DNA of 64,000 bases from Prauserella halophila. Its GTDB lineage: Bacteria > Actinomycetota > Actinomycetes > Mycobacteriales > Pseudonocardiaceae. The position numbers and the translations under genes are program-made. The notes under the pieces were generated by a model. The model was not told the DNA's origin. It ran no database searches and saw only the letters and a list, made by a program, of their open reading frames with translations. Shown in pieces: positions 948 to 50,155 of the stretch. Each line of letters starts with the position of its first letter. The stretch's first letter is position 1. The stretch lies in the NCBI RefSeq assembly GCF_024171895.1, contig NZ_JAMTCQ010000014.1, positions 62,001-126,000 on the forward strand. Direction: 5' to 3'.

Positions 948-1010
948 GGGGTGCGCGCAGGACACGCGTGTTTGAACGCAGAACACGTGGTGCCGAGTGC
1001 AGGACACGTG
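948..1010 (-). repeat. 21-bp CGTGT repeats, ACTCGG subtype (three units)
   Basis: Read on the minus strand, units at 990-1010, 969-989 and about 948-968 each begin with CACGTGT or CGCGTGT followed by YCTGC. The first unit carries the CTGCACTCGGCAC body seen again near 16.06, 20.29, 49.6 and 50.1 kb. The period is 21 bp. Confidence 0.75.
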
Positions 1011-1279
1011 GTGCCGGAACGGTACCGGCGCGGCAGGGGCGTCAATCCGTCGACGATCCGTCGGCGCGCGAGGCGCACGCGGTGGTTGACAGCGAGGTCC
1101 TGGCTGGGCCGTGGCGGGATGGTGGCGCGGCTCCGGTGCGAAGATCAGCGCATGTCCGTATCCCGAGTCGAATCGCTGACCACCAGGCGATGCACCCGAG
1201 TCGCTGGTGACACGGTGCCGCCGGCCGGCACCAGCGCGGCCTCGGCCTTACGGCACGACGCTGCGGCTTCCCCGGGGGC

Positions 1280-1363
1280 TGCAACACGGGCCCTGGAAAA
1301 CGCAACACGGGCTCCGGAACCCGCAACACGGGCCCCGGAAAACGCAACACGGCGGGCTTCGGG
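1280..1363 (-). repeat. 21-bp CGTGT repeats, TTCCGG subtype (four units)
   Basis: On the plus strand the units start at 1280, 1301, 1322 and 1343 as (C/T)GCAACACGG followed by GCCC(T/C)GGAAAA-like tails; the minus strand reads CGTGTTGCG. The spacing is exactly 21 bp. The array lies 212 bp upstream of doxX and does not follow the stop codon of any gene. Confidence 0.85.
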
Positions 1364-1406
1364 TGGCGAGGGGCCAACCGGGTTTTACATCGTGCCTGCC
1401 ACAATG

Positions 1407-1420
1407 GTTGAAGGTTCAAC
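1407..1420. promoter_or_regulatory. Inverted repeat GTTGAA-N2-TTCAAC upstream of doxX
   Basis: Perfect 6-bp arms separated by GG. This TTGAA/TTCAA form resembles operators of MarR/HxlR-type repressors that often control DoxX-family genes in actinobacteria (family knowledge). No such regulator gene is present in the window. Confidence 0.4.
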
Positions 1421-1442
1421 ATCAAGTCACGGATTCAACGAC

Positions 1443-1483
1443 GCCATGACTTCGACACAGCCATGACCTCGATAAGTCATGGC
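1443..1483. promoter_or_regulatory. 10-bp inverted repeat GCCATGACTT / AAGTCATGGC upstream of doxX
   Basis: Arms at 1443-1452 and 1474-1483 are perfectly complementary with 21 nt between them, and a third partial copy (GCCATGAC) lies at 1460-1467. It may be a second operator or an RNA hairpin in the leader. The sequence alone does not separate the two. Confidence 0.4.
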
Positions 1484-1574
1484 CGCGGTGAGCCGTGAAC
1501 TCGACAAGCATGGACGCGCGCGGCTGTGCGGTCGGCCGACCGACAGTCGTTCGAACAACCGGCGGAGGCCAAGT

Positions 1575-2003
1575 ATGTACGCACGTATCCAGGACGTTGC
1601 GGCGCTGATCGGGCGCATCGCGGTCGGTGTCGTGTTCCTCGCCCACGGGCTCGACAAGTGGAACGCCGGCATCGACGGGACGGCCCAGATGTTCGAGGCC
1701 GTCGGCATTCCGCTGCCCACCGTCGCGGCGGTCTTCGTCATCGCCGTCGAGGTCATCGGCGCGATCATGTTCATCGTCGGCTTCGCGACGCCGTTGGTCG
1801 GTATCGGCTTCGCGATCGTCGGGCTCGGCGCGACGTTCGCCGTCCACCTCGACGCCGGGCTCACCGGCGACGGCGGTTACGAACTCGTCCTCCTGCTCGC
1901 CCTCGCCGGTCTCGCGTTGGGCTTCAACAGCGGCAGGCTGGCACTCGACCAGGTGCTCGTCGGTCGTCGCCGCAGCAGCAAGGAGGCCGAACCGGTCAGC
2001 TGA
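1575..2003 (+). CDS. DoxX-family membrane protein
   Basis: 142 residues with four predicted transmembrane helices and the DoxX family signature near the N-terminus (RIAVGVVFLAHGLDKWN, with the HGxxK core). DoxX proteins are small membrane proteins. In mycobacteria a relative associates with superoxide dismutase and a thiol oxidoreductase in membrane redox defence; the exact role here is unknown. The start ATG at 1575 has GGCGGAGG seven bases upstream, so the in-frame ATG at 1479 is not preferred. The stop overlaps the end of the convergent downstream gene by 8 bp. Two palindromes about 100-170 bp upstream suggest repressor control. Confidence 0.85.
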   Translation: MYARIQDVAALIGRIAVGVVFLAHGLDKWNAGIDGTAQMFEAVGIPLPTVAAVFVIAVEVIGAIMFIVGFATPLVGIGFAIVGLGATFAVHLDAGLTGDGGYELVLLLALAGLALGFNSGRLALDQVLVGRRRSSKEAEPVS

Positions 2004-2697: not shown

Positions 2698-2723
2698 GCC
2701 CGCGATTCTCCCCTGCCGGGGCG

Positions 2724-4532: not shown

Positions 4533-4578
4533 GCGGCCCCTCCCCATCCGGCGTGTGCTGCTCAGGCCTGCCGTAAGC

Positions 4579-7460: not shown

Positions 7461-8375
7461 ATGAGCCGCCTCGCGGTGCTGGTGCCCGGAGGATCGGGCC
7501 AGCTCGGGAAGGACCTGTCGGCCGTCGGCGCGGAGCGTGACGCCGCTGTGCGAGCTCCCGGGTCGGCGGAACTGGACGTCACCAGCCCGGGCGCCGTGCT
7601 GGAGGGCGTGTCCCAGCTGGTGGACCAGGCGCGAGCCGAGGGGCGGGTGCCGGTGGTGATCAATGCGGCGGCCTACACGGCCGTCGACGCCGCCGAGGAG
7701 GACGAGCACCGTGCGTTCGCGGTCAACGCCGACGGGCCACGCGTGCTGGCCGCGGTGTGTGCGTCACGGCGGGTGCCGTTGCTGCACGTGTCGACGGACT
7801 ACGTGTTCGGCGGGGACGGCGACGTTCCCTACGAGCCGGACACGCCGCCGGGGCCGCGCACCGCCTACGGGCGCACCAAGGCCGCAGGCGAGGACGCCGT
7901 GCTCGGCTCGGGTGCGCGGGCGTGGATCGTGCGGACCGCCTGGGTCTACGGCGTGGGCGGCGGCAACTTCGTGAGGACCATGGCGCGACTGGCTTCCGAG
8001 GGAGCGAACCCGTCCGTCGTGGATGACCAGCGCGGCAGTCCGACGTGGACGGCCGACCTGGCGTCGGGCCTGCTGGAGCTGGCGTCGGCGGTGACCGGCG
8101 GCACCGCCCCGGAGCGGCGGGTGCTGCACTGCACGGGCGGCGGCGAGACCACGTGGTACGAGTTCGCGCGTGCGGTGTTCGAGGAGCTCGGCGCCGACCC
8201 CGACCGGGTGTCGCCGTGTACGACGGCGGAGTATCCGCGCCCCGCGCCGCGGCCCGCCTACTCGGTGCTGTCCAACGCCGCGTGGCGCGAGGCGGGTTTG
8301 ACGCCGTTGCGCCCGTGGCGGGAAGCCCTGTCCGCCTTCGCCGCCGACCCCAGGAGCGCCCTGGTCGGCAGCTGA
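7461..8375 (+). CDS. rmlD: dTDP-4-dehydrorhamnose reductase
   Basis: 304 residues. It catalyses the last step of dTDP-L-rhamnose synthesis, reducing dTDP-4-dehydrorhamnose with NAD(P)H. It shows the Rossmann motif GGSGQLG (10-16), NAAAYTAVDAAE, STDYVFGG (111-118) and the catalytic YGRTK (Tyr136, Lys140). ATG 7461 has GAGGTG six bases upstream. It probably forms an operon with rmlB. In mycobacteria wbbL follows rmlD directly, whereas here five other glycosyltransferase genes intervene. Confidence 0.94.
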   Translation: MSRLAVLVPGGSGQLGKDLSAVGAERDAAVRAPGSAELDVTSPGAVLEGVSQLVDQARAEGRVPVVINAAAYTAVDAAEEDEHRAFAVNADGPRVLAAVCASRRVPLLHVSTDYVFGGDGDVPYEPDTPPGPRTAYGRTKAAGEDAVLGSGARAWIVRTAWVYGVGGGNFVRTMARLASEGANPSVVDDQRGSPTWTADLASGLLELASAVTGGTAPERRVLHCTGGGETTWYEFARAVFEELGADPDRVSPCTTAEYPRPAPRPAYSVLSNAAWREAGLTPLRPWREALSAFAADPRSALVGS

Positions 8376-8380
8376 CCCGC

Positions 8381-8401
8381 CCGCGTGTTCTGCGCCCGCC
8401 C
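8381..8401 (+). repeat. Single 21-bp CGTGT repeat after rmlD
   Basis: CCGCGTGTTCTGCGCCCG starts 5 bp after the rmlD stop codon and reads on the same strand as rmlD. It is followed (8402-8460) by a segment related to 13270-13330 and 20301-20360, with CGCCCGACCACCACTCC and a TGACGCACGACTGCGTC dyad. Confidence 0.6.
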
Positions 8402-8480
8402 GTCGCCCGACCACCACTCCCCACGGCCGCGCTGACGCACGACTGCGTCTTCGCGGCCGGGAGGGCGCGGCACGGGCTGG

Positions 8481-9617: not shown

Positions 9618-12123
9618 GGCCCAGCCTCGTCCGTACGACCTTGCGTACCCGTCCGGCCGCTCTGCGGGTCAGCTCGGCAGGCCCGCCGTCGGCGAGGTAC
9701 TCCTTGAACAGGGCCACGTCGCGGCGCACCTTCTGCACCCGGTTCAGTGGCGGTTCCGTCGTGAGATCGGCCGAGCCCGCCAGCCGATCGGCGGCCGGAC
9801 GCGGATCACGGACGAACGTCACGAGCGGGTCGAGCACGTTCGGCCACGTGTACCGCTCCGCGACCGTCGCGATGCGCTCGCGGCAGCCGTCGGCGAACTC
9901 GGTGTCGTACAGGCACTTCTCGAGCGCGTCGGCGAGCGCGTCGGTGTCCTCGGCCGGTACGACGACGCCGAGCCGCTCGCTCCGGACCAGGTCGGCGAAC
10001 GCGTCCCCGTCGGTCGTGACGATCGGCAGACCCGCCCACAGATAATCCAGCACGCGGGTGCGGAAGGCGAACGTCGTCTCGATGTGCTCGAAGTGCGTGG
10101 TGACGCCGCAGTCGGCGTCGAGCAGCCAGTTCTGGCGGTCGTCGTAGGGCACCCACTGCTCGTTGAAGAACACGTGTTTACCGGTCAGGCCGAGGGAATC
10201 GGACAGCCGCATGGTCTGCGCGCCGATGTCCATTTCGGTCACCTCGGGGTTCGGGTGCTTCATGCCGAGGAAGACCAGGCGTGCGTCGTCGCGGCGGGTG
10301 CTGAGGCGCTCCACGGCACGCACGAGCGTCAGCGGGTCGAACCAGCTGTACACGCCGCCCGCCCACAGCACGACGTGGTCGCTTTCGGACAGTCCGAGCG
10401 AGGCGCGCAGACCGGCGCCGGTGCGCTGCGGCGGCCGGGTCGACAGTCCGAACGGGACGACCGACAGCAGTGACTCCGTCGTCGGATCGGCGTCGTAGAG
10501 CCGCGGGGTGAGCCTGCCCGTCGCGGCGAGGTGGCCGAGCCACAGGTGCCGTTGCCGCTCGGAGGCGCACAGGAAGAAGTCACCGCGTTGCAGCTGGGCG
10601 TCCAGCACGCGGGTGACGCCGTCGAGATCCGCGGCGCGGCGGTCGTCGGGCACGTCCTTGGTCTGCTCGAGCAGTTCGAGGTGCATCGGGTCGTACAGAT
10701 CGCACACGACGATCTTGTGCGCGTACTCGGCCTTCAGCGCCGGTGCCATCTCCAGCACGTGGCCCTGCAGGATGACGACGTCGGCCCACCGGATCGGTTC
10801 GCTGAGGTCGCGCCGGCGTGCGGCGCTCACGGGGAACGGTGCGGGAGGCGGCTCGGCCAGCGGGTTGACCGTCACGAGGCGGACGTCGTGTTCGCCGGAG
10901 AGGACCTCGGCGATGTGCCACGCGCGGATCGCCGGACCCGCCATGCGCTCGGTGATCGCGTCGCCCGTGAGCACCAGCACCTTGCGCCGGGTGCCGAACG
11001 CCCGCTCGATGCCGAACGCCTCGACGAGGAGGTCGTGCGCGGCGAGGTAGCGGGGGAGCGGGTAGGCCGGTTCGAGTGCGTTGCGCAGCAACGGCAGCAG
11101 GTCGGCGTCGGTGCGTACGCGCGCGGATTGCTCGGCGGCGCGGGACTCGGCCAGCGACGGCAGCTGTTCGACGAACTGATCGATCGCCAGTACGCCCGCG
11201 AGCGTGCTGCGTGGCACCGGTACGGCCGCTGTCTCCGCGGGGCCAGTGCCGTGTTCGAGATCCAGCCGCGTGGGGTCGAGCTCACCGCGGGCGGTGGCGC
11301 GGCGCACGGTGAGCGCCAGCGCCGCGGGCAGTGCGCGGGCGAGCGTCTCGTCGGAGGCGTTCTTGTACAGCGCGGCCAGGGCGTTGCGCTCGAGCAGGAA
11401 CGTCTCCCTGCCGCTGTCCGGTGCGTCCACTTCGGACATCGTGGCGTGATGCCGGTGGTAGGTCAGCGATTCCGGCACGTAGCGCACCCGCCACCCGCGC
11501 AGGTTCAGTCGCCAGCCGAGGTCGACGTCCTCGTAGAACATGAAGAAGTGCTCGTCGAACCCGCCGAGTTCGGCGAACACCGACGAGCGCACGAACATCG
11601 CCGACCCGGTCGCGAACAGCACGTCCTTGGCGAGTGCGTGCTCGGCGTGCGGCACGTCGGCGATCGGGCCACCCGCGTGGCGTTTGTAGCCCATGCCGAA
11701 CCAGGTGAGCCCCGCGTCGACGAAGTCGGTGCCCGTGCCCTCCCAGTCGAGGACCTTGCTCGCGACCGCGCCGACGGCAGGCTCGGCCCGCAGCGTCGCC
11801 ACGGCGGCGCCGACCCAGCCGGGCGCGGGCCGGGCGTCGTTGTTGAGCAGGGCCAGCACGGTGCCGTTCGCCTCGCGCGCGCCGAGGTTGCAGCCGCCCG
11901 CGAATCCGCGGTTCGTCGCCGACGTGACGAGCCGGGCCCCCGGCACCGCGTCGCGGATGCGCGCCACGTCGTCGCCGCCGGAGGCGTTGTCGACGCAGAT
12001 GACCTCGAGGTTCGGGTAGTCGTGTTCGGCGAGTGCGCGCAGGCACGCGATCGTGTCGTTGGCGCCGCGATAGTTCACCACGACGACCGAGACCAGCGGT
12101 GCTGCCGGGTCCTGCTGCGACAC
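9610..12123 (-). CDS. Two-domain glycosyltransferase (GT2 fused to GT4)
   Basis: 837 residues. Residues 1 to about 290 form a GT-A family 2 transferase (VSVVVVNYRGANDT, VICVDNASGGDD, ALLNNDARP, FMFYEDVDLGWRL), resembling rhamnosyltransferases. From about residue 370 a GT-B family-1/4 transferase follows (LVLTGDAITERMAGPAIRAW, WAGGVYSWFDPLTLV, FRTRVLDYLWAGLPIVTTDGD). Such fusions occur in polysaccharide clusters and may add two sugars in succession to a membrane-linked glycan; the products here are unknown. Start GTG 12123 has GAAGGAG upstream. It lies 30 bp after the GT2 gene upstream and is coupled to the GT4 gene downstream. Confidence 0.88.
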   Translation of the reverse strand: MSQQDPAAPLVSVVVVNYRGANDTIACLRALAEHDYPNLEVICVDNASGGDDVARIRDAVPGARLVTSATNRGFAGGCNLGAREANGTVLALLNNDARPAPGWVGAAVATLRAEPAVGAVASKVLDWEGTGTDFVDAGLTWFGMGYKRHAGGPIADVPHAEHALAKDVLFATGSAMFVRSSVFAELGGFDEHFFMFYEDVDLGWRLNLRGWRVRYVPESLTYHRHHATMSEVDAPDSGRETFLLERNALAALYKNASDETLARALPAALALTVRRATARGELDPTRLDLEHGTGPAETAAVPVPRSTLAGVLAIDQFVEQLPSLAESRAAEQSARVRTDADLLPLLRNALEPAYPLPRYLAAHDLLVEAFGIERAFGTRRKVLVLTGDAITERMAGPAIRAWHIAEVLSGEHDVRLVTVNPLAEPPPAPFPVSAARRRDLSEPIRWADVVILQGHVLEMAPALKAEYAHKIVVCDLYDPMHLELLEQTKDVPDDRRAADLDGVTRVLDAQLQRGDFFLCASERQRHLWLGHLAATGRLTPRLYDADPTTESLLSVVPFGLSTRPPQRTGAGLRASLGLSESDHVVLWAGGVYSWFDPLTLVRAVERLSTRRDDARLVFLGMKHPNPEVTEMDIGAQTMRLSDSLGLTGKHVFFNEQWVPYDDRQNWLLDADCGVTTHFEHIETTFAFRTRVLDYLWAGLPIVTTDGDAFADLVRSERLGVVVPAEDTDALADALEKCLYDTEFADGCRERIATVAERYTWPNVLDPLVTFVRDPRPAADRLAGSADLTTEPPLNRVQKVRRDVALFKEYLADGGPAELTRRAAGRVRKVVRTRLGHG

Positions 12124-14877: not shown

Positions 14878-16023
14878 GTGGCCGACCCCAGAGTGTTGAT
14901 CGACGCCACCGCTGTGCCTGCCGACCGCGGTGGCGTCGGCAGGTATGTCGATTCCCTGGTTGCCGCCCTCGATTCCGACGGGGTGGCACTCTCCGTGGTG
15001 TGCCAGCCACGGGACACCGAGCTGTACGGCGGACTCGCTCCGCACGCCGAGATCGTGCCCGCCGCGGAGTCGACGGCCACCCGCACGGCCCGCTTGACCT
15101 GGGAACAGACCACGCTGCCGCGCCTCGCGGGAAGGCTCCGCGCCGATGTCGTCCACTCGCCGCACTACACGATGCCGTTGGCCAGCCGCGCCGCCTCGGT
15201 GGTCACCCTGCACGACGCGACGTTCTTCACCGACCCGATCCTGCACTCGTCGGTCAAGGCGCGGTTCTTCCGCGCGTGGACGTCCACGGCGTTGCGGCGG
15301 GCGGACGTGTGCGTCGTCCCCAGTGAGGCGACCTCCCACGAACTGGCGCGTGCCACCCCCGCATCCGGCGCGCGAATCGAGGTCATCCACCACGGTGTCG
15401 ACGAGGAGCGGTTCCATGTTCCGTCGCCGGAGGAGATCCGGACCGCACGCGAGGCGATCGGCATCGGCGCCACGCCGTACGTCGCGTTCCTCGGAGCGCT
15501 CGAACCGCGCAAGAACGTGCCCGCGCTGGTGCGTGGTTTCGCCCATGCCGTCGCCGACATGCCGGAACCGCCCGCGCTGGTGCTCGCGGGGCAACCCGGC
15601 TGGGACCGGCAGGTCGAGTCCGCGCTCGACTCCGTGCCGCACCGGCTGCGTGTGATCCGTGCGGGGTACCTGCCGTTCGACGGGCTGTCGGGTTTTCTCG
15701 GCGGCAGCGAACTCGTCGCATATCCGAGCCTCGGGGAGGGCTTCGGCCTGCCGGTGCTCGAGGCGATGGCGTCGGGCGCGTGCGTGCTGACCACCCGCAG
15801 GCTTGCGTTGCCCGAGGTCGGCGGCGATTCGGTGGCCTACTGCGGGGTCGGGGCGGGCGACGTCGCGGCCTCGTTGCGGGAGCTGCTCGACGACCCGGCG
15901 CGCCGCTCCCGGCTGGCATCGGCAGCGCAGCGCCGGGCGAAGGACTTCTCGTGGGGCGCCACCGCCGAACGCCACCGCGAGGCCTACGCCAGAGCCGCCC
16001 ACGCCGCCCGCGCGCCGGCCTGA
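14878..16023 (+). CDS. Glycosyltransferase family 4
   Basis: 381 residues, a mannosyl/rhamnosyltransferase-like GT-B protein. Motifs: LIDATAVPADRGGVGRYVDSL, HSPHYTMPL, VVTLHDATFF, VIHHGVDEERF, YVAFLGALEPRKNVPALVRGF and the donor-site YPSLGEGFGLPVLEAMASG. GTG 14878 is chosen because homologous sequence begins at VADPRVLIDA and the hexamer TACCCT lies 6 nt upstream; the in-frame ATG at 14824 is less likely. It probably acts in the same envelope glycan pathway as its neighbours. Confidence 0.86.
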   Translation: MADPRVLIDATAVPADRGGVGRYVDSLVAALDSDGVALSVVCQPRDTELYGGLAPHAEIVPAAESTATRTARLTWEQTTLPRLAGRLRADVVHSPHYTMPLASRAASVVTLHDATFFTDPILHSSVKARFFRAWTSTALRRADVCVVPSEATSHELARATPASGARIEVIHHGVDEERFHVPSPEEIRTAREAIGIGATPYVAFLGALEPRKNVPALVRGFAHAVADMPEPPALVLAGQPGWDRQVESALDSVPHRLRVIRAGYLPFDGLSGFLGGSELVAYPSLGEGFGLPVLEAMASGACVLTTRRLALPEVGGDSVAYCGVGAGDVAASLRELLDDPARRSRLASAAQRRAKDFSWGATAERHREAYARAAHAARAPA

Positions 16024-16040: not shown

Positions 16041-16187
16041 CGTGTCCTGCGTCGAGCACCGCGTGTCCTGCACTCGTGCCCCTCGAGGTGCACCTCCCAG
16101 CGCCGTGTTGCGGACTCCGGGGACCGTGTTGCGGATTCCGGGGGTCGTGTTGCGGACTCCGGGGACTGTGTTGCGTTGTGCGGGCCC
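16041..16187 (+). repeat. 21-bp CGTGT repeats of both subtypes (six units)
   Basis: Units at 16041-16061 and 16062-16082 carry CGTGTCCTGC; units at 16104, 16125, 16146 and 16167 carry CGTGTTGCG followed by GA(C/T)TCCGGGG. The array begins 17 bp after the stop codon of the plus-strand glycosyltransferase and reads on the same strand. Both subtypes in one place show they are related. Confidence 0.9.
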
Positions 16188-19388: not shown

Positions 19389-20277
19389 ACGCCGCCTACG
19401 ACCCGGATTCGATGTCGACCTCGATGCCGTGCTGGCGCCGCTGCGGCGTGGTCACGCCGATCCGTGTGTGCGGCATGACGGCGGATTCTGGCTGACGGCG
19501 AACACCGCGGAGGGGTCCGCCACGCTGCGGGTGTCGCGGTCCGGAGTGGACGTCCTCGGAACCGCGTGGGGAGACGGTGCCGAGGCGGTCCTCGACGGAC
19601 TGCCCGCACTGCTGGGCGCCGACGACGATGACTCCGGGTTCGTGGCGCACCACGAGGCGGTCGCGAGGGCGCGGCGGAACCTGCCGCGGCTGCGACTGGG
19701 CGCGACGCGGCGGGTGTGGGACGTGCTCGTGCCCGCGGTGCTGGAACAGAAGGTGACCGGGTACGAGGCGCACCGGTCGTGGCGGGAACTGTGCCGGCGG
19801 TTCGGTGAGCCCGCCCCCGGCCCGGCACCGGAGGGGATGCACGTACCGCCGACACCCGCGGCCGTGTTGTCCATTGTGGATTGGAACTGGCATCGGGCTG
19901 GTGTGGATTCCTCGCGCAGGCGGGCGTTGCGGGCCGCGGCGACGGTGGCCCGCCGGCTGGAACGCGCTGCGTCGCTGGGCGGCGCGGAGGGCAGGAAGCT
20001 GTTGCGGACGGTACCGGGCATCGGCGTGTGGACCGCGGCCGAGGTGGCCCAGCGCGCGTGGGGCGATGCCGACGCGGTCAGCTTCGGCGATTTCCATGTC
20101 CCCTCGGTCGTCGGCCATGCCCTGCTCGGCCGCGAACTCGACGACGCCGGTATGCACGAGGTGCTCGCCCCGTACGCGCCGCACCGCCACCGCGCGGTGC
20201 GCTACCTCGAGGCGGCGGGCCACACGCGCCCGCGCTACGGCCCCCGCCACCCGATCCGCGACCACCGCGCCATCTGA
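19381..20277 (+). CDS. DNA-3-methyladenine glycosylase 2 family (HhH-GPD)
   Basis: 298 residues, AlkA-type. The helix-hairpin-helix and GPD signature is in LLRTVPGIGVWTAAEVAQRAWGDAD followed by VSFGDFHV, where the Asp before FHV is the expected catalytic residue. VWDVLVPAVLEQKVTGYEAH matches the usual segment that packs on DNA. It removes alkylated bases in base-excision repair. The ATG at 19381 overlaps the manB stop by 8 nt, so it should be co-translated with manB although the functions are unrelated. Confidence 0.88.
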   Translation: MRERRLRPGFDVDLDAVLAPLRRGHADPCVRHDGGFWLTANTAEGSATLRVSRSGVDVLGTAWGDGAEAVLDGLPALLGADDDDSGFVAHHEAVARARRNLPRLRLGATRRVWDVLVPAVLEQKVTGYEAHRSWRELCRRFGEPAPGPAPEGMHVPPTPAAVLSIVDWNWHRAGVDSSRRRALRAAATVARRLERAASLGGAEGRKLLRTVPGIGVWTAAEVAQRAWGDADAVSFGDFHVPSVVGHALLGRELDDAGMHEVLAPYAPHRHRAVRYLEAAGHTRPRYGPRHPIRDHRAI

Positions 20278-20735
20278 CCCCGCGTGTCCTGCACTCGGCA
20301 CCGCGCGTCGCCCGGCCAACACCCCTCGGGGACGCGCTGGCGCGCGACTGTGTTTGCGGAGCCGTGTTGCGCCGGTCGCCACCCGGCCGGCCCCTCTGCG
20401 ATGCATCGGCACGGGTTGCCGTCGTCCACGGGGCCCGCACCCGGACGCTCGCACTCTGCACCGCGGCCGGTGCCCGGTCGGATTTCCGCCAGTCGTACGG
20501 ATCCTGAGCGCAGTTCGTTACCGTACGGCGAGTTGACGATCACCGCAGCGAAAGTGCGTGGACTCGGGTGAAGGGCAGGAACCCACGGCGCGTGCCGAAC
20601 GCAGAACACGCGCGGCCGAACGCAACACGCGCCCCCCCCCCGGGAAACGCAACACGGCCCCCGGAGAACGCAACACGCGCCCCGGTGAACGCAACACGGC
20701 CCCCGGAGAACGCAACACGCCGGGGAGGGTGTGGG
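20278..20735. other. 458-bp intergenic region between convergent genes, repeat-rich
   Basis: One ACTCGG-subtype unit (20281-20301) starts 3 bp after the glycosylase stop codon on its strand, and a lone CGTGTTGCG unit follows at 20364. A minus-oriented array (20600-20731) runs up to the gntR stop codon. The segment 20302-20360 resembles those after rmlD and before 13330 (GGACGCGCTGGCGCGCGACT). No gene is seen. Confidence 0.7.
20600..20731 (-). repeat. 21-bp CGTGT repeats (six units) with a C10 tract
   Basis: Plus-strand units begin CGCAGAACACG or CGCAACACG at 20600, 20621, about 20648, 20669, 20690 and 20711; read on the minus strand they follow the gntR stop codon after 4 bp. The second unit contains ten consecutive C (20632-20641), which lengthens it and could slip in replication. 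Confidence 0.85.
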
Positions 20736-21446
20736 TCAGGGGAAGGCGTCGAGGAGTTGGTGCTGGGCCGTGGTGAGGTAGTCGTCGAGGGTGCGGGCTG
20801 CGGCGTCGAGGTCGCCGTCGGCCAGCAGGCGCGCGATGCCGCGGTTCAGCTCGATGTACGGCTCGTGGAACCGGCGCAGTGCCGGTGTGGCGTGGAACGC
20901 CAGTCGCAGTTCCGCCGTGAGCTGCTGCATGATCTCGTCGGCCCGCGGGCTGCCGGCGAGTGCCGTGATCGCCTGGTGGAAGCGCATGTTCGCGGTGCCG
21001 ACGTCCAGCCAGCGTTCCTCGGCGGCGGCTTGCTCGGCGGACGTGATCGCCGCTTCGATCGCCGCCAGCCGCTCCGGCGGCACGTCCGACGCCGCCCGGA
21101 TCGCACCCGGTTCGAGTAGCCGCCGCGTGCGGTACAGATCGGTCACGTCGTCGGCGTCGAGCATCCGGACGAACACGCCTCGGTGAAACTCGTGCACCAG
21201 CAGTCGTTCGTGCACCAGCAGGCGAAACGCTTCACGCAGCGTGTTGCGTGACACCCCGAGTGCCTTACCCGCGCTGTGCTCCGAGAGCTGGGTTCCCGGG
21301 AGCAGTCGTCCGTCGATGATCCACTGCCGCAGCGCATCGGCGACCCGCTCGGCCGTACTGGTTCGGTCGAGCAGCGAGCGGTTACCCGCGAGTAGGTCGG
21401 ACCAGGGTTCGGCGTCGGCCTGGCCGGATGCGCTGGGGCTGGCCAT
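20736..21446 (-). CDS. GntR-family regulator, FadR subfamily (FCD domain)
   Basis: 236 residues. The N-terminal winged helix-turn-helix (ADALRQWIIDGRLLPGTQLSEHSAGKALGVSRNTLREAFRLL) is followed by an all-helical FCD ligand domain (DLYRTRRLLEPGAIRAA, MRFHQAITALAGS). It probably represses the divergent oxoprolinase-type operon and responds to a small organic acid. Start ATG 21446; the frame upstream to 21491 has no ribosome site. Two palindromes in the divergent gap are good operator candidates. In Bacillus the comparable operon is controlled by an IclR-type protein, KipR, so the regulator differs. Confidence 0.88.
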   Translation of the reverse strand: MASPSASGQADAEPWSDLLAGNRSLLDRTSTAERVADALRQWIIDGRLLPGTQLSEHSAGKALGVSRNTLREAFRLLVHERLLVHEFHRGVFVRMLDADDVTDLYRTRRLLEPGAIRAASDVPPERLAAIEAAITSAEQAAAEERWLDVGTANMRFHQAITALAGSPRADEIMQQLTAELRLAFHATPALRRFHEPYIELNRGIARLLADGDLDAAARTLDDYLTTAQHQLLDAFP

Positions 21447-25500: not shown

Positions 25501-25647
25501 CGCGATTCGGCCCCCGGAGTTCGCAACACGGCCCCCGGAGCCCGCAACACGGCCCCTGGAGCCCGCAACACGGGCCCTGGAATCTGCAACACAGGCCCCG
25601 GAGCCCGCAACACGGGCCCTGGAATCTGCAACACGGGCGCTCGGGCG
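25501..25647 (-). repeat. 21-bp CGTGT repeats (seven units) abutting gntR stop codon
   Basis: Units at 25501 (degenerate), 25522, 25543, 25564, 25585, 25606 and 25627, exact 21-bp period. Plus-strand form is (C/T)GCAACAC(G/A)G followed by (C/G)CCC(C/T)GGA. The last unit ends one base before the stop codon of the minus-strand gntR gene, so on that gene's strand the array follows the stop directly. Confidence 0.92.
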
Positions 25648-26022
25648 TCAGTGGGAGCGGAGGGCGGCGGTGACGATGGCGAGGGCCTCGTCCTCGCTCA
25701 GGCCGAGTTTGCGTGCCGTGTCGGCGTACTGCCGGGCGGCGTCGCGGGCCCGGATCCGTGTGCGGTCGCCGGTGGCTGCCACGAACGTGCCTGAACGGCC
25801 CTTCGTCTCGATCAGCCCGGCTTCCTCGAGCTCCCGGTAGGCGCGCGCGATCGTGTTGGGTGCGATGCCGAGGTCCGCGGCGAGCTTGCGCACGGTCGGC
25901 AGCTTCGTGCCGACGGCCAACGCGCCGTCGTTGATCTGCTCGGCCAGCCCGGAGCGGATCTGTTCGAACGGCGGCACCTTCGACTCCGGGTCGACGCCGA
26001 CCAGCGGCTCCGTCTCACTCAT
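25648..26022 (-). CDS. GntR-family regulator, YtrA-like (small)
   Basis: 124 residues: a winged helix-turn-helix (PPFEQIRSGLAEQINDGALAVGTKLPTVRKLAADLGIAPNTIARAYRELEEAGLIETKGRSGTFV) and a short helical C-terminus, without a ligand domain. Such YtrA/YhcF-type regulators usually control transporter or stress genes and are often autoregulated. Start ATG 26022 has no clear ribosome site. It is the last gene before the repeat array and is read in the same direction as nudix-fbiB-fbiA, 44 bp after the Nudix gene; co-transcription is possible. Confidence 0.88.
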   Translation of the reverse strand: MSETEPLVGVDPESKVPPFEQIRSGLAEQINDGALAVGTKLPTVRKLAADLGIAPNTIARAYRELEEAGLIETKGRSGTFVAATGDRTRIRARDAARQYADTARKLGLSEDEALAIVTAALRSH

Positions 26023-29982: not shown

Positions 29983-30303
29983 GTGACCTACGTTATCGCC
30001 GAGCCCTGCGTCGACGTGCTCGACAAGTCATGCATCGACGAATGCCCCGTCGACTGCATCTACGAGGGTGACCGGATGCTCTACATCCACCCCGATGAGT
30101 GCGTCGACTGCGGAGCCTGCGAGCCGGTGTGCCCGGTGGAAGCGATCTACTACGAGGACGACGTTCCGGAGGAGTGGGTCAACTACACCAAGGCGAACGT
30201 GGACTTCTTCGACGAGATCGGCTCGCCGGGCGGGGCGGCCAAGGTCGGCAAGGCCTCGCACGACCCGCAGTGGATCAAGGACCTGCCCCCGCAGGGCGAA
30301 TGA
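29983..30303 (+). CDS. fdxC: Ferredoxin with 3Fe-4S and 4Fe-4S clusters
   Basis: 106 residues, a seven-iron ferredoxin of the mycobacterial FdxC type. Cluster ligands are visible in [17 protein letters not shown] and [15 protein letters not shown]; the acidic tail [17 protein letters not shown] is typical. It carries electrons, for example to cytochromes P450 or oxidoreductases. GTG 29983 has AGGAG eight bases upstream; the frame to 29932 is not conserved. The stop overlaps the dapC ATG by 4 nt, the same fdxC-dapC pairing as in M. tuberculosis Rv1177-Rv1178. Confidence 0.95.
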
Positions 30304-31391
30304 CCCGGCTCCAGCTGCCCGGCTTCCCCTGGGACTCGCTGGCCGGGCACACCGCACGGGCGAAGGCGCACCCGGACGGGATCGTCGACCTCTCGGTCGG
30401 CACACCGGTGGACCCGGTGCCCGAGGCCGTCCGGGATGCGCTGGCGTCGGTGTCGGACATCCCCGGCTATCCGGCCACGCACGGCACGCCGGAGCTGCGG
30501 GAGGCCGCCGTTGAGGCACTGCGCCGCAGGCACGGTGTCACCGGCCTCCAGCCGGATGCCGTGCTGCCCACGATCGGTTCGAAGGAACTGGTCGCGTGGC
30601 TGCCGATGCTGCTGGGCGCGGGCGCAGGCGACGCTGTCGTCATCCCGGAACTCGCGTACCCGACGTACGAGGTCGGGGCGCTGATCGCCGGCGCGACGGC
30701 CCGTCGCGCCGACAGCCTGACCGCACTCGGGCCCGAGACGCCCGCGATGGTCTGGCTCAACTCGCCGTCGAACCCCACCGGCCGCGTGCTGGGTGTCGAC
30801 CACCTGCGCAAGGTCGTCGACTGGGCCCGCGAGCGCGGCGTCGTGGTCGTCTCCGACGAGTGCTACCTCGCGCTCGGCTGGGACGCCGAACCCGTGTCGA
30901 TCCTGCACCCCGATGTGTGCGGCGGTAGCCACGAGGGGCTGCTCGCGGTGCACTCGCTGTCGAAATCGGCCAACCTCGCGAGCTACCGCGCCGGGTTCCT
31001 CACCGGCGACCCCGCGCTGATCGCCGACCTCCTGGCCGTTCGCAAGCACGCGGGGATGATCGTGCCGCGTCCCGTGCAGGAAGCCATGCGCGTGGCGCTC
31101 GCCGACGACTCCCCGCTGGACCGGCAGCGCGAGTTCTACACCGCGCGCCGTGAGCTGCTGCGGGAGGCGCTGGCCGGTGCGGGCTTCCGTATCGATCATT
31201 CCGAGGCGGGGCTGTACCTCTGGGCCACGCGCGACGAGTCCGCCGACGACACCGTCGCCTGGCTCGCCGAACGCGGCATCCTCGTCGCCCCCGGCACGTT
31301 CTACGGCCCCGGCGGCGGATCCCACGTCCGCGTCGCCCTGACCGCCACCGACGAACGCGTCGCCGCCGCCGCGAAACGCCTGTCGGAGTAA
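30300..31391 (+). CDS. dapC: N-succinyldiaminopimelate aminotransferase
   Basis: 363 residues, class-I PLP aminotransferase. It forms N-succinyl-L,L-diaminopimelate precursor chemistry in lysine and peptidoglycan synthesis. Motifs: [52 protein letters not shown] and [16 protein letters not shown] with the PLP lysine (SLSKSAN). ATG 30300 overlaps the fdxC stop. Its transcript probably ends at the strong hairpin 31519-31560 shared with dapD. Confidence 0.93.
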
Positions 31392-31401: not shown

Positions 31402-31464
31402 CCGTGTTGCGCTTTCCGGAGTCCGTGTTGCGGATCCAGGGGCCCGTGTTGCGGGTTCCGGGGT
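31402..31464 (+). repeat. 21-bp CGTGT repeats (three units) after dapC
   Basis: Units at 31402, 31423 and 31444, each CCGTGTTGCG followed by a CC-rich tail; a fourth degenerate unit overlaps GCAACACGG in the opposite sense at 31474. They start 10 bp after the dapC stop and read on its strand. Confidence 0.88.
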
Positions 31465-31518
31465 TCGTGTGGTGCAACACGGCCGACAACACGCGCGGCT
31501 GAGCGCAGGACACGCGCA

Positions 31519-31573: not shown

Positions 31574-32560
31574 TCAGTCGTTGGCGTGCAGGGCCTCGTT
31601 GAGCTCGATGCCCGTGCCCTGGCGCGGGACGACCTCCACGGCGCCGGTGGCCGAGTTGCGCCGGAACAGTACGTTCGAGATGCCCGACAGCTCACCGGCC
31701 TTCACGGCTTTGCCGTCGACCAGCACCTTCGTGCCCGCCGTGACGTACAGGCCCGCCTCGACCACCGAATCGTCACCGAGCGAGATGCCGACGCCGCCGT
31801 TCGCGCCCAGCAAGCAGCGCTCACCGAGGGAGATGATCTCCTTGCCGCCGCCGGACAGCGTGCCCATGATCGACGCGCCGCCGCCGATGTCGGAGCCGTC
31901 TCCCACGACGACGCCGGCCGAGATGCGGCCTTCGACCATCGACGCGCCCAGCGTGCCCGCGTTGAAGTTCACGAAACCCTCGTGCATGACGGTCGTGCCG
32001 CTGGCCAGGTGCGCCCCGAGGCGCACGCGGTCGGCGTCGCCGATCCGCACGCCGCTGGGCGTCACGTAGTCGACCATGCGCGGGAACTTGTCGACGCTGT
32101 AGACGGTCACCGGTGCCCGGGCGCGCAGGCGCATGCGCGTCGCCTCGAAGCCCTCCACGGGGCACGGCCCGTGGTTGGTCCACACGATGTTTTGCAGGAA
32201 GCCGAACTGCCCGTCCAGGCTCAGCCCGTGCGGCTGCACGAGCCGGTGGGAGAGCAGGTGCAGGCGCAGGTAGACGTCGTGCCCGTCGGCGGGCGCCGTC
32301 GCGAGGGTCGCCGCCGCGGTGCGCACGGCCACGACCTCGACGCCACGGGCGTCGTCCGTGCCCAGCAGCGAGGTGACCTCGGGGCCGAGCGACTCCGCGG
32401 CCTCCTCGGCCGACAGCCGCACGGTGCCGGACTCGGCGGCGGGCTCGGTCAGCCGCGGGTGCGGGAACCAGGTGTCCAGCACCGTGCCGGACGCCGTGAC
32501 GGTGGCCAGGCCGACGCCGCTCGCGCCGGTCGTTTCGGGATCAGGGGTCTGCTCACTCAC
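31574..32560 (-). CDS. dapD: 2,3,4,5-tetrahydropyridine-2,6-dicarboxylate N-succinyltransferase
   Basis: 328 residues, the actinobacterial DapD type with a left-handed beta-helix. It succinylates tetrahydrodipicolinate in lysine/DAP synthesis. Hexapeptide-repeat segments include [36 protein letters not shown] and [26 protein letters not shown]. Start GTG 32560 has no ribosome site, but TACCGT lies exactly 6 nt upstream, as for a leaderless message. Convergent with dapC across the shared hairpin and divergent by function, not position, from dapE 700 bp away. Confidence 0.93.
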
Positions 32561-33114: not shown

Positions 33115-33177
33115 CGTGTTGCGGATTCCGGGGGCCGTGTTGCGGGTTCGGGGGAGCGTGTTGCGGGTTCCGGGGCG
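33115..33177 (+). repeat. 21-bp CGTGT repeats (three units) in a divergent promoter region
   Basis: Units at 33115, 33136 and 33157 (CGTGTTGCG followed by GATTCCGGGG or variants). This array lies between the divergent starts of the lipoprotein and dapE genes and so does not follow any stop codon, an exception to the usual position. Confidence 0.88.
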
Positions 33178-39238: not shown

Positions 39239-39299
39239 CCGGCGGCCCGCACCGCCGACGGACGTGACCGGTGCGCGTCCCCGGTGTAGACCGGGGACG

Positions 39300-39359
39300 C
39301 GCAACACGGCCCCTGGAATCCGCAACACGGCCCCTGGAATCCGCAACACGGCCCCTGGC
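39300..39359 (-). repeat. 21-bp CGTGT repeats (three units) beside the echA stop
   Basis: Plus-strand units CGCAACACGG-CCCCTGGAATC at 39300, 39321 and 39342 are nearly identical. Read on the minus strand they follow the enoyl-CoA hydratase stop codon after 10 bp. Confidence 0.9.
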
Positions 39360-39369: not shown

Positions 39370-40170
39370 CTACTTGCCGGTGAAGACCGGCTTGCGCTTG
39401 TTGACGAACGCGTCGACCGCCTCGGTGTGGTCGGCGGTGCCGCCGAGCACGGTCTGCGCCGCGTCCTCGGCGGCCAGCGCGTCGGCGAGCGTGCCCTCGG
39501 CGGCCGTTGCGAGAGTCGACTTGATCTTGGCGTAGGCGACCGTCGGGCCGGCTGCCAGTTTCAGGGCGGCCTCGTGGACCCGGGCGGCCAGCTCGTCGTC
39601 GGCCACGACCTCGCCGACCAGGCCGATGCGCAACGCCTCCGTGGCGTCGACCGTGCGCGCGAGCATCATCAGTTCCATCGCGCGCCCGTACCCGACGAGG
39701 CGCTGCAGCGTCCACGAGGCGCCGCTGTCGGGGCCGAGTCCGACGTTCGCGAACGCCATCAGGAAGTTCGCCGACCCCGCGACGATCCGCAGATCCGACG
39801 CGTACGCCAGCGCTGCACCCGCACCGGCGGCGGGCCCGTTCACCCCGGCGATCACGGGCTTGGCCATGCCGGTGATCGCCTCGATGATCGGGGTGTAGTG
39901 GTCGGCGACCGTGCGCAGCGGTGCGTCGTCGCCCGACTGCAGCAGGCCGACGTGTTCCTTCAGGTCCTGGCCTGCGCAGAACGCCTTGCCCGCCCCGGTG
40001 AGTACGACGGCCCGTACCCCGTCGTCGGCCGCTGCCTCGCGCAGCGCGGTCAGCAGGCGCTCCTTCAGCTCGACCGTCAGCGCGTTGTAGGCCTCGGGGC
40101 GGTTGAGCGTCAGCGTCCGCACACCGGGGTCGCCACTGTCGGTCACCTGCAGGACGTCGTCTGTCGTCAC
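39370..40170 (-). CDS. Enoyl-CoA hydratase/isomerase family protein
   Basis: 266 residues, crotonase fold. RPEAYNALTVELKERLL, GKAFCAGQDLKEHVG (oxyanion-hole Gly) and PAAGAGAALAYASDLRIV are present; the second active-site loop reads VGLGPDSGASWTLQRLVG, with Asp instead of the two-Glu hydratase arrangement, as in PaaG-type isomerases. It may therefore act as an isomerase in phenylacetate-type or fatty-acid catabolism; the substrate is not known. GTG 40170 has GGAGG upstream. Confidence 0.9.
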   Translation of the reverse strand: MTTDDVLQVTDSGDPGVRTLTLNRPEAYNALTVELKERLLTALREAAADDGVRAVVLTGAGKAFCAGQDLKEHVGLLQSGDDAPLRTVADHYTPIIEAITGMAKPVIAGVNGPAAGAGAALAYASDLRIVAGSANFLMAFANVGLGPDSGASWTLQRLVGYGRAMELMMLARTVDATEALRIGLVGEVVADDELAARVHEAALKLAAGPTVAYAKIKSTLATAAEGTLADALAAEDAAQTVLGGTADHTEAVDAFVNKRKPVFTGK

Positions 40171-45440: not shown

Positions 45441-45506
45441 GCGCGAAAGGTTAGCGCGACGCACGCGAGCAGACCGGAGCACCACGGCACCGCCGGGGCC
45501 GGCAAG

Positions 45507-45688: not shown

Positions 45689-45715
45689 GAACGGCTAACG
45701 AAGGGGATCAGGCCG

Positions 45716-47334: not shown

Positions 47335-47522
47335 CCGGTGCCGGACCGCCGGTCCCCGTGACCGGGTCGCGGGAGCAGAGGCCGGAAGCGGCCCACGCCC
47401 ATTTCACCGGTGCCGCGACAGGATCGTCCCGAGATGCCTCATGGTGCGTCGGTGCGACGCGCCGCACACGCGTACTCTGCGTGCGAGGCACGAGCACGCG
47501 ATGAATCGGATGCCGGGGGAAG

Positions 47523-49070
47523 ATGAGCCAGCCACCGACCCCGTCCCACGAGGGCGACGAGGAGCAACGGCTCCGGCCGCGGCCCATCGCGCGCCCGTCC
47601 GTGGACTCGGCAGCCGCTTCGGCGTTCGGCAGGCCGCGCGGCGTGGAGGGCTCGTTCGATGCGCTGTCCCACCCCGGATCGGCCACGGGCAACGGCAACG
47701 CACCCGGCAACGGGGCTGCGGGCCCCGTGCTCGCACCGCCCACCCCGGAATCGCTGGCCCAGGCGTTCGGCCGCCCTCCCGGCGCGGACGACGTCGTGCT
47801 GCAGCGAGCCGACGGCACCGACGGCGGTGAGACGGGCGCGGCCGACACCGACGAGGCTCCGTTGTGGACGTCGGAGGCAGATCCCTGGCGTGACCCCGGC
47901 GCGCCCGCCGTGCTCGGCAGGCCCGCCGTCACCGGGTCCGACGCCGGAGCCGAGGCCGCCACGGCACCGGGAGCGCAGCTGAGCCTGCCCGAGGTGCTGT
48001 TCGGCAGGCGCGTCAAGCCGGCCGCACTGGCGATACTGGCCGTGATCGCCGTGCTGCTCGGCGGCGCGGGCGGCCTCGTCGGCTGGGCCGTGGCCACCAC
48101 GGGGGACGAACTCACCGGTGAACTCGACGTCGCCGAGGCCGACGCCGCGAAGGAACGCCCCGCCGGGTCGATCGCCGGTATCGCGAAGCGCGTGGCGCCC
48201 GCGGTCGTGTCCCTCGAGGTCACGTCCGGCCGCAGCGGCGGTGTCGGCTCCGGCGTGATGATCGACTCCGACGGCTACGTGCTCACCAACCACCACGTGG
48301 TCTCGCAGGCCGCCGAGGCCGACGGCGCCGACATCGCCGCCGTGTTCATCGACGGCACGCGGGCCGGTGCCGAGGTCGTCGGCACGGACCCGAAGACCGA
48401 CCTCGCGGTCATCAAGGTGAACGTGTCCGACCCCGTCGTGCTCGAGGTCGGCAAGTCCTCCGACATCGCTCCCGGCGACGGCGTCGTGGCCGTCGGATCC
48501 CCGTTCGGCCTCGAGAACACCGTCACCGAGGGCATCGTCAGCGCCGTGGGCCGCCCGGTCACCGCCCCCGGCGAGAACGGCGACGCCAACGTCACCTACG
48601 ACGCCATCCAGACCGATGCCGCGATCAACCCGGGTAATTCCGGAGGCGCGCTCGTCGACTCCCGCGGCGCGCTCGTGGGCATCAACTCGATGATCCGCAC
48701 CGTCGGTGAAGGCGAGGGTGGCAGCATCGGCCTCGGCTTCGCGATCCCCGTCGACCAGGCCATGCGTATCGCCGAGGACCTGATCAGCGACGGCGAGGTG
48801 CAGCACGCCGACATCGGCGTCAACGCCGCGTCGGTGTCGGCCGGCAGCTCGGAGGGCGCTCAGGTGCAGCACGTGCAGGGTCAGGGGCCCGCGGGGAAGG
48901 CGGGTGTCCAGGAGGGCGACGTGATCACCAAGGTCGGCGAGCGGCAGGTGCGCAACGCCGCCGAACTCACCGTTGCCGTCCGCGAACACGAGGTCGGCGA
49001 CACCGTCCCGGTGCGGCTCGTGCGCAGCGGACGAGCACTTACCGTCGATGTCACCCTGGGTTCAGACTGA
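47523..49070 (+). CDS. htrA: HtrA-type trypsin-like serine protease with PDZ domain
   Basis: 515 residues: a cytoplasmic, disordered N-terminus of about 160 residues, one transmembrane helix (about 166-190), a protease domain with His258 (LTNHHVV), Asp293 (KTDLAVIK) and Ser373 (NPGNSGGAL), and a C-terminal PDZ domain (VQHVQGQGPAGKAGVQEGDVITKVG). It degrades or refolds misfolded proteins outside the membrane. The order sigE-rseA-htrA-tatB is that of mycobacteria. ATG 47523 follows GGGGGAAG. TACTCT near 47471 may be a promoter -10. Confidence 0.92.
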   Translation: MSQPPTPSHEGDEEQRLRPRPIARPSVDSAAASAFGRPRGVEGSFDALSHPGSATGNGNAPGNGAAGPVLAPPTPESLAQAFGRPPGADDVVLQRADGTDGGETGAADTDEAPLWTSEADPWRDPGAPAVLGRPAVTGSDAGAEAATAPGAQLSLPEVLFGRRVKPAALAILAVIAVLLGGAGGLVGWAVATTGDELTGELDVAEADAAKERPAGSIAGIAKRVAPAVVSLEVTSGRSGGVGSGVMIDSDGYVLTNHHVVSQAAEADGADIAAVFIDGTRAGAEVVGTDPKTDLAVIKVNVSDPVVLEVGKSSDIAPGDGVVAVGSPFGLENTVTEGIVSAVGRPVTAPGENGDANVTYDAIQTDAAINPGNSGGALVDSRGALVGINSMIRTVGEGEGGSIGLGFAIPVDQAMRIAEDLISDGEVQHADIGVNAASVSAGSSEGAQVQHVQGQGPAGKAGVQEGDVITKVGERQVRNAAELTVAVREHEVGDTVPVRLVRSGRALTVDVTLGSD

Positions 49071-49118
49071 ACCTTGTAGGCTCGGTCACGTCGGCAGTAC
49101 AAGGCGGAGGTTTCCCAG

Positions 49119-49598
49119 GTGTTCGAGAGCATTGGCTGGTCCGAGATCCTCGTCATGCTCGTGGCTGCCCTGTTCATCCTCGGTCCCGAGCGGCTGCCGG
49201 AGGCAGCGGCGTGGATGGGCCGGTCGGTGCGCAAGGTCCGGGATTTCGCCACCGGCGCCCGGCAGCAGCTCAAAGACGAGATGGGCCCGGAGTACGAGGA
49301 GTTCCGCAAGCCCATCGAGGATCTGCGCGGGCTGCGTGACTTCGACCCCAAGCGTGCCGTGACCCAGCACCTGTTCGACGGCGACTCCGATCCGGCAGGC
49401 CTGAACAACCTCAACGGCAGCCGCCCCATCGGCGGCGACGGCGCGCAGACCACGCCGAATGCGAGTGACAGGAGCGGCGACACGGGTGGTGCCGGCGTCG
49501 GCGGTATCGGCGCCGGAGGTGCGGGAACCGCGGCCAAACCGCGCCAGGATCCGCTCACGTCCGGCGAGAAACCCCCGGTCGACCCGGACGCCACCTGA
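49119..49598 (+). CDS. tatB: Sec-independent protein translocase TatB
   Basis: 159 residues. The N-terminal helix and hinge [32 protein letters not shown] are diagnostic, followed by an amphipathic helix ([19 protein letters not shown]) and a charged, partly Gly-rich tail. TatB receives folded twin-arginine substrates and passes them to TatC. GTG 49119 has GGCGGAGG seven bases upstream. It follows htrA by 48 bp and probably shares its transcript. Confidence 0.93.
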
Positions 49599-49617
49599 CC
49601 TGACCGACGGCCCCACC

Positions 49618-49701
49618 CCGCGTGTCCTGCACTCGGCCTGCCGAGATTTGTACTCGGACCCGCGTGCTCTGCACTCAGACCCGCCGAGATCTGCACTCGG
49701 C
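49618..49701 (+). repeat. 21-bp CGTGT repeats, ACTCGG subtype (four units)
   Basis: Units at 49618, 49639, 49660 and 49681; the first and third begin CCGCGTG(T/C)(C/T)CTGCACTC, the second and fourth are diverged at the head (CCGAGAT(T/C)TG) but keep the ACTCGG tail and the exact 21-bp phase. Confidence 0.85.
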
Positions 49702-50109
49702 CCGCCGTCCGATCCGCTGATCACTCACTCGGGGGACGGCTCGTGCCTGGTGAATCCTACTTTCGTCGGATTCTTCGTCCCGGCGAGGCAACTATCGTCG
49801 CGGCTACCGCGTGAGCCTCGCGTCCGGGCCGTCGGCCCCGAACGTGGACCAGGATGGCGGGGCGCTGCACCGTCGGCGGTGATACCGGCTGCCGGACCGG
49901 GGATCGGTACCGGCGGGCGGTGTTCCGGCAGGGAACGCATGCGCGGGTCGTGTCCGCGCCGGTGGTCCCGAGGCATCCCTCGCACTGGGGGTGGAGGCCT
50001 CGGGATCACGGCTCACGCCGTCGGGCACCGGCGCAGTGGTCGTCGCAGTGGTCGGCGCGGTGACCGAGCGGTCCGTGGGCGCGTCAGCACAGTCACCGCG
50101 CGCCCACGG

Positions 50110-50155
50110 CCGCACGAGTGCGGAACACGCGGTGCCGAGTGCAGGGACACTCGGG
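50110..50155 (-). repeat. 21-bp CGTGT repeats (two units) beside the mrp stop
   Basis: On the minus strand CGAGTGTCCCTGCACTCGGC is followed by ACCGCGTGTTCCGCACTCG. The array starts about 5 bp after the mrp stop codon and reads on the same strand. Confidence 0.75.

Follow-up and report, generated by a model that had tools for sequence, protein, structure and literature searches.

Phased 21-bp CGTGT repeat arrays at gene 3′ ends in Prauserella and related Pseudonocardiaceae

Comparison with described repeat systems

Iterons, the direct repeats of plasmid and phage origins, come as several copies of ~19-22 bp and so place one unit per two helical turns. In the present study we describe a family of 21-bp repeats, each unit beginning with CGTGT, which we followed from a 64-kb window of the Prauserella halophila genome (bases 62001-126000 of contig C7; genome G000, 5.05 Mb in 16 contigs) into other members of the genus and of its family, the Pseudonocardiaceae. 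Direct repeats at helical spacing are common to both systems, adjacent CGTGT pairs being found 255 times at 21 bp compared with eight times at 20 bp and nine times at 22 bp. However, iterons sit beside a rep gene or an origin, whereas the CGTGT arrays are dispersed at the 3′ ends of unrelated genes, and no replication domains were found in the ten array-owning window genes checked. The DNA uptake sequences (DUS) of Neisseriaceae also form a dispersed motif, commonly close to gene ends, in which the core is kept and each species has its own dialect, and the recognition repeats of TraB show species dialects as well. DUS are single 10-12-mers or inverted pairs, whereas the CGTGT units form phased arrays. 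Repetitive extragenic palindromic (REP) sequences are palindromic, in contrast with the Prauserella units, which by consensus are non-palindromic tandem direct repeats; one variant, from group g16, which we take to be Amycolatopsis, is palindromic. With REPs and bacterial interspersed mosaic elements (BIMEs), the arrays share the presence of many extragenic copies, often at 3′ ends (on REPs, see also PMC12306157). Three CGTGT in 21-bp phase are matched 194 times in the genome, and 58 of the 73 arrays with at least two phased CGTGT are intergenic in 864 kb, the part of the G000 genome that our location and orientation statistics cover.

In the actinobacteria, BldC is described, in the portion of the report to which we refer, as binding in a polar head-to-tail manner on direct repeats of varying number, which are 9-bp AATTXXXX(C) repeats situated at promoters (PMC5859096). 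The CGTGT arrays are instead GC-rich, have a 21-bp period and are found at gene ends, and they lack the 9-bp repeat of the BldC operators. Many sets of intergenic TAACTGA direct repeats have been reported from marine Beggiatoaceae and distantly related lineages, with 7-bp units and, as far as the accessible text goes, no apparent 21-bp phase or CGTGT core (PMC4679880). A survey of prokaryotic satellites covers bacterial tandem repeats and tabulates Amycolatopsis mediterranei, yet the part of it at hand reports transposed satellite families only in Leptospira and Methanocella and describes no 21-bp stop-linked family (PMC6749651). An earlier sequence-only reading of the window had known of no described family with these properties, and we likewise found none among the top-ranked matches in open PubMed Central papers, a scope that leaves subscription journals outside.

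Location and polarity of the arrays in Prauserella

Arrays were located with a position weight matrix (PWM) scan at a threshold of 12 bits, which gives an array set that includes single units. Genes were called with a simple in-house caller, so that missed genes may explain some antisense or divergent arrays and false genes some of those that appear to be coding. These data show that 71 arrays of G000 are intergenic and 17 lie within called genes, that 50 of the 71 are sense to the neighbouring stop, and that 37 start no more than 30 nt from a sense stop (one of them overlapping it). When placement and strand were randomized within each array's own intergenic region, 10.6 arrays fell within this distance (standard deviation 2.5, maximum 22, 5000 draws), and a strand flip left four. 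Counted as units, 89 sense and 19 antisense units were centred 1-75 nt past stops and 53 and 40 respectively at 76-150 nt, with none located 1-150 nt past starts. Under the stricter definition of at least two phased CGTGT, the 58 intergenic arrays comprised 25 between convergent genes (21 of which were nearer to their own stop), 25 between tandem genes (15 sense) and eight in divergent regions. Phased CGTGT chains numbered 74, compared with six on the reversed sequence.

The same picture was obtained for Prauserella as a whole, in which the six relatives of G000 (G001-G006, among them P. salsuginis, P. alba and P. aidingensis) were compared on syntenic stretches and are thus not independent of one another. 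In the pooled set, convergent arrays were nearer to their own stop in 54 cases and to the other stop in nine, tandem arrays were sense in 23 cases and antisense in 11, and divergent regions, which provide 35% of the intergenic bases of these stretches, held nine of the 106 arrays. Separately, we observed one gene-poor stretch of 2.6 kb (L041, G000:C5:290844-293430) with six arrays on both strands, three of them in weak gene calls.

Within the window, CGTGT-N16-CGTGT occurs 26 times against an expectation of 0.61, a count that was reached in 0 of 100 shuffles. The arrays are built from two unit types, A and B, and are as follows.

946..1008, minus strand: three type-B units (PWM scan and sequence), in a divergent-called region (exception)
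1289..1351, minus strand: three type-A units, in the divergent-called region shared with the 946..1008 array (exception)
8384..8404, plus strand: single B unit, 8 nt past the stop of 7461-8375 (RmlD-like), with a longer composite repeat behind it
16041..16187, plus strand: mixed array BB-x-AAAA, 17 nt past the stop of 14893-16023 (glycosyltransferase)
20283..20303, plus strand: B unit, 5 nt past the stop of 19468-20277 (no Pfam match)
20590..20719, minus strand: AAAA followed by A/B units, 16 nt past the stop of 20736-21446 (GntR/FCD)
25510..25635, minus strand: six type-A units, 12 nt past the stop of 25648-26022 (GntR)
31403..31465, plus strand: three type-A units, 11 nt past the stop of 30300-31391 (aminotransferase)
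31494..31514, minus strand: B unit, sense to the converging gene 31574-32560 and 59 nt off its stop
33115..33177, plus strand: three type-A units, between divergent genes (exception)
39288..39350, minus strand: three type-A units, 19 nt past the stop of 39370-40170 (enoyl-CoA hydratase)
49621..49705, plus strand: degenerate type-B array, 22 nt past the stop of 49119-49598 (TatA-like)
50109..50129, minus strand: B unit, 30 nt downstream of 50160-51296 (NUBPL-type ATPase)

The sequence-only reading had listed twelve loci with two subtypes, most of them close behind a stop codon and on the strand of its gene. All twelve were recovered in place by the PWM scan and in the sequence, and the 16041-16187 array does contain both subtypes, with a B-to-A distance of 42, i.e. 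2 × 21. By our gene calls, ten arrays are stop-proximal and on the same strand, 5-59 nt after the stop (8384, 16041, 20283, 20590, 25510, 31403, 31494, 39288, 49621 and 50109), and those at 946, 1289 and 33115 are exceptions in divergent-called regions, as had been proposed. One detail had to be corrected, in that the 25510-25635 array does not abut the gntR stop, its first unit beginning 12 nt beyond it. The refutation test set by the sequence-only reading, applied to the 864 kb, left its claim standing: orientation departed from 50%, and the arrays did not lie equally within coding sequence or ahead of starts.

A second degenerate B unit sits closer to the stop of 50160-51296 than the one at 50109..50129, and weak single-unit matches at 10154 and 51120, inside called genes, are probably due to chance. 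The divergent-called region of the 946..1008 and 1289..1351 arrays also contains a weak B unit, at 880-900. Positions 544-1575 hold three arrays or units over 1 kb without a good gene call; a decayed or missed gene may account for the divergent exceptions here. We also noted a longer repeat, CCCGTCGCCCGRCCRCC...CGACGCGCNGRCGCGCGAC, after B units at 8384-8470, 20283-20370 and 875-965 (minus strand), which at some sites is flanked by B cores spaced 71-72 bp from one another and which, with an upstream B core, is matched 11 times in the 864 kb. A 15-mer of it is non-specific when taken alone (248 matches compared with 289 on the reversed sequence). A match of the 25.5-kb array to a Burkholderia stagnalis plasmid was rejected as an unrelated 7-bp repeat.

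The repeat unit and its change across relatives

The consensus of the A unit is CGTGTTGCGgnTTCCGGGGcc and that of the B unit, in G000, CGTGTYCTGCRYTCggcaccg. Strict A pairs occur 118 times in G000 and not once as the reversed pattern, and the PWM scan gave 172 A and 89 B matches over the 864 kb, compared with four and six respectively on the reversed sequence. We then considered middle units selected via their neighbours only, in three data sets, i.e. G000 (85 units), G001-G006 (85 units) and G009 (Haloechinothrix halophila) together with G169 and G226 (27 units). GTGT was kept at 0.96-1.0, C14 at 0.91-0.99 and G17 at 0.92-0.96, the remaining positions varying more between the data sets. Neighbouring units differed on average at 3.9-5.2 of their 16 spacer bases, yet their period is kept. 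Array length changes (spacings of 19, 20, 22 and 23) numbered 29 per ~1146 substitutions, compared with ~92 expected from a baseline of 144 orthologous intergenic pairs without arrays (218 indels per 2708 substitutions), which retains only similar, alignable pairs and hence has a lowered indel rate. Homogenization of units could be another way to lose length variants. At A/B junctions, eight of 17 in G000 were at 21 or 42 bp and seven of nine in the relatives at 21, 42 or 63 bp, and no spacing peaks were seen at 31 or 52 bp, where we had sought them. In-frame coding of the units (21 bp being seven codons) was dropped after inspection by eye, because the would-be third positions appeared equally conserved.

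An unseeded analysis of 9-mer repeats at lags of 10-60 in intergenic regions placed lag 21 first, alone or jointly with 42, in each of the ten array-bearing genomes examined. ACACG/CGTGT ranked first or tied among the 5-mers in six of seven Prauserella sets and outside the top eight in G169; phased CGTGT was present in 39 of the 56 lag-21 intergenic regions of G000, three of eight in G169, five of ten in G226 and eight of 15 in G009. Five array-poor genomes, represented by 17 intergenic regions in 50 kb, gave no lag-21 repeat, a sample too small to exclude other cores.

Comparison of the seven Prauserella genomes shows that arrays at orthologous gene ends differ in unit sequence and vary widely in unit number, the comparison that the sequence-only reading had called for. 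Of 54 window gene ends comparable in at least four genomes, 12 have, in one genome or more, a sense array no further than 120 nt away, and for nine of them this is so in at least three genomes. At the end of 20736-21446, five genomes have mostly A-type arrays and G005 has a B array, each lying 8-16 nt past the stop, whereas G001, where only 4 bp separate the converging genes, has no array; orthologues of the 25648-26022 end have arrays in six of the seven genomes. G001 has no A or B pairs, shows only three single A-like cores in this comparison, and carries a third unit of its own, 21-bp units beginning CGTGTCAGCA, at five of the compared ends.

Beyond the genus, we examined a family sample of 390 genomes and a class-wide sample of 246, two of which are from Pseudonocardiaceae. 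The core pair CGTGTTGCG-N12-CGTGTTGCG was present in six of seven Prauserella genomes and once in the rest of the family sample; among 41 genomes searched, the B pair was found in G000, four of its six relatives and one other, G009, with 57 copies. The triple CGTGT at 21-bp phase is far more widespread, with matches in 113 of the 390 family genomes. Copies number tens to hundreds in g1 (7/7 genomes), g4 (4/4), several g25 and g27 genomes and single g10, g21 and g56 genomes; in g16, at least ten matches occur in 27 of 80 genomes (maximum 76) and none in 32, and in g5, g54, g55, g8 and g26 every genome has at most five. The spacers differ by lineage, being CGTGTCGTCCGTCCAATCACG in g16, CGTGTTTGCCGTTCCGGGCAT in g27 and CGTGTCCTGCACTCCCGACGC in G009. 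The reversed control was largely near zero, with highs of 20 matches (G372) and 29 (G399, which is array-less). The reversed pattern was also matched six times in G097 and 15 times in G177, and these three genomes (G097, G177 and G399) may contain other 21-bp tandem repeats. In the class-wide sample, G000 was the sole outlier, 17 other genomes having one to three matches, comparable with the reversed control.

Location and orientation outside Prauserella were assessed in four data sets, G009, G226, G169 and G148/G154/G160, of which the last three comprise loci chosen through pattern matches; for orientation we used eight of ten picked loci plus 200 kb for G226 and nine of ten plus 200 kb for G169, overlapping loci being excluded. 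In these sets, convergent arrays were nearer to their own stop in 25 cases and to the other in 32, tandem arrays were sense in 19 and antisense in 12, and two of 90 arrays were divergent. Divergent regions make up 26-34% of intergenic bases in the contiguous sequence of G000, G009, G226 and G169, and convergent regions were over-represented in every contiguous set, e.g. with seven of 13 arrays compared with 13% of intergenic bases in G009. The location at 3′ ends and between convergent genes is therefore general in the sets examined, whereas polarity is a Prauserella trait, and the fixed orientation claimed by the sequence-only reading is upheld within the genus and not in the four sets outside it. 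Inverted array pairs are frequent in G226 and g16, and in G226 eight of 11 convergent regions are ordered minus-plus. The palindromic g16 variant, ATCACGCGTGAT, was observed at locus L192 (G148:C1:2603200-2609200), where its repetition at 21 bp gives a symmetric unit junction.

What the arrays might do

Taken together, the conserved core, a second conserved position in many units about one turn further on, a pitch of two helical turns and, outside Prauserella, the independence from strand suggest sites in double-stranded DNA that a multimeric protein would bind. That the arrays avoid promoters and lie behind genes, including convergent ones, suggests transcription boundaries. The reading that we favour, tentatively and as possible rather than probable, is that the arrays are phased DNA sites for a putative protein that forms a transcription barrier at gene ends. 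Each array would be a row of sites for a DNA-binding protein presumably kept in Prauserella, Haloechinothrix and several related genera. One contact of this protein might fall on GTGT (positions 2-5) of each 21-bp unit; most unit types would add a second on TC..G (positions 13-17), approximately one turn away on the same helix face, and a multimer of the protein would be lined up along up to approximately ten units in an iteron-like manner. What we observed are the arrays with their period, place, Prauserella polarity, kept positions and dialects; binding of a protein at the arrays is what we infer from these features, and the barrier function is a guess. Situated behind stops and chiefly between convergent genes, such a barrier would stop or insulate transcription, acting as a roadblock both to read-through and to head-on polymerases. 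It would be polar in Prauserella, where the units read along with the gene, and in other genera it might often be an inverted pair facing both directions, the lineage dialects of the unit tracking changes in the protein. We are more doubtful of the wider proposal that the clade marks many 3′ ends, mostly convergent, with multimer-bound phased arrays as a DNA-level boundary, the unit having turned over several times while GTGT and the 21-bp pitch were kept.

A number of observations weigh against such a barrier. No candidate binding protein was found (no phylogenetic profile was made), and 277 of the 390 family genomes are without a match, so that the arrays are not essential for the function of gene ends. 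Polarity is absent from the data sets outside Prauserella, as seen in the 25 to 32 split at convergent ends. Even in G000, ten of the 25 tandem arrays are antisense and eight of the 58 intergenic arrays are divergent, which the sequence-only reading leaves unexplained, and 15 further strict arrays fall within called genes. The second contact is not universal, G000 B units having C17 at 0.50 compared with G17 at 0.30 and the g16 unit carrying T17. In addition, if spacings of 15-18 and 25-30 are included, array length changes rise to 55 compared with ~92 expected, so that the depletion lies between 1.7- and 3.2-fold depending on the spacings counted.

A serious rival, although on balance we consider it unlikely, is a tolerated minisatellite, either selfish or neutral, that would have spread between sites through copying or conversion and survived where it is least harmful, in gene 3′ ends away from promoters, with homogenization within each genome giving rise to the dialects. 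Harmlessness predicts the avoidance of divergent regions, and the wide variation in unit number at orthologous sites and the lack of any match in 32 of 80 g16 genomes and in entire related genera are in keeping with it. It does not predict the Prauserella polarity (54 to nine at convergent ends), array starts within 30 nt of the stop, the same ends holding different unit sequences, or the conservation of GTGT across genera despite change in the rest of the unit. A minisatellite with concerted evolution would explain where the arrays lie and why there are dialects, whereas polarity and the conserved contacts would be left over. Sites of DNA topology or chromosome organization, loading gyrase, condensin or a nucleoid protein at the positive supercoils between convergent genes in a BIME-like manner, would account for the helical phasing and for the over-representation of convergent regions in each contiguous set; as the polarity of the Prauserella arrays would be unexpected and their consensus units are non-palindromic, we regard this as improbable. 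It is very improbable that the arrays are tags for genetic exchange, i.e. uptake or conjugation recognition sequences: they are dispersed genome-wide and intergenic, with species dialects around a kept core, but stop-linked polarity would be left unexplained, the A pair had no match in IMG/VR and one A array had none among phage records.

An RNA-level function, which the sequence-only reading had put first, would make the arrays 3′ untranslated region (UTR) elements whose transcribed repeats bind a protein, or stabilize or terminate the mRNA. Sense polarity and stop proximity in Prauserella are what such an element would show, and in folding analyses eight of 25 G000 arrays of at least three units had z < -2 in the sense direction (mean -1.28, compared with -0.43 for antisense). 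Where arrays lie on both strands the transcript would form a very strong hairpin, mean z being -5.7 to -11.1 in G226, G169 and G148/G154/G160, and the one-strand arrays of G148/G154/G160 fold too, eight of ten being below z -2 (mean -2.82). However, arrays on one strand, which prevail in Prauserella and G009, are close to array-less ends: z < -2 was found for 18% in G000 and 22% in G001-G006, compared with 16-19% of array-less ends (samples of 70 from 151 convergent and 70 from 208 tandem ends). Mean z values for one-strand arrays were -0.9 in G000 (n = 38), -1.0 in G001-G006 (n = 27), -0.2 in G009 (n = 11), -1.3 in G226 (n = 6) and -0.6 in G169 (n = 3), those of array-less ends being -0.85 and -0.79. 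A hairpin terminator was set aside as the principle common to the arrays because folding of most one-strand arrays is scarcely stronger than at ends without arrays, although some G000 and G148/G154/G160 arrays do fold. Hairpins in the 60 nt past arrays were rarer, with z < -2 in 8% of 36 compared with 19% of convergent and 16% of tandem array-less ends, which speaks for the barrier proposal, although the contrast is small and distances from the stop differ between the compared sets. The exact 21-nt spacing has no obvious RNA rationale, and the window gave no Rfam match at gathering score. The loss of polarity outside Prauserella weakens a purely RNA-level reading and, as folding gives it no clear support in Prauserella, we consider an RNA-level function quite unlikely and favour the alternative that the sequence-only reading had itself named, a protein contacting two helical turns of the DNA, with which the rigid 21-bp spacing and the kept positions approximately one turn from each other agree.

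To our knowledge, how transcripts end in GC-rich actinobacteria and how convergent genes are kept separate are largely open questions. An element with a defined pitch, core and place, and with natural dialects, would offer a direct handle on them, as the sites predict a protein and the dialects allow swaps. If the arrays were neutral, they would still provide an unusual bacterial example of dispersed concerted evolution, with a repeat that is homogenized across each genome and yet occupies the same gene ends in differing forms. If, on the other hand, the boundary reading were true, the arrays would represent a bacterial counterpart of orientation-dependent terminator-box arrays.

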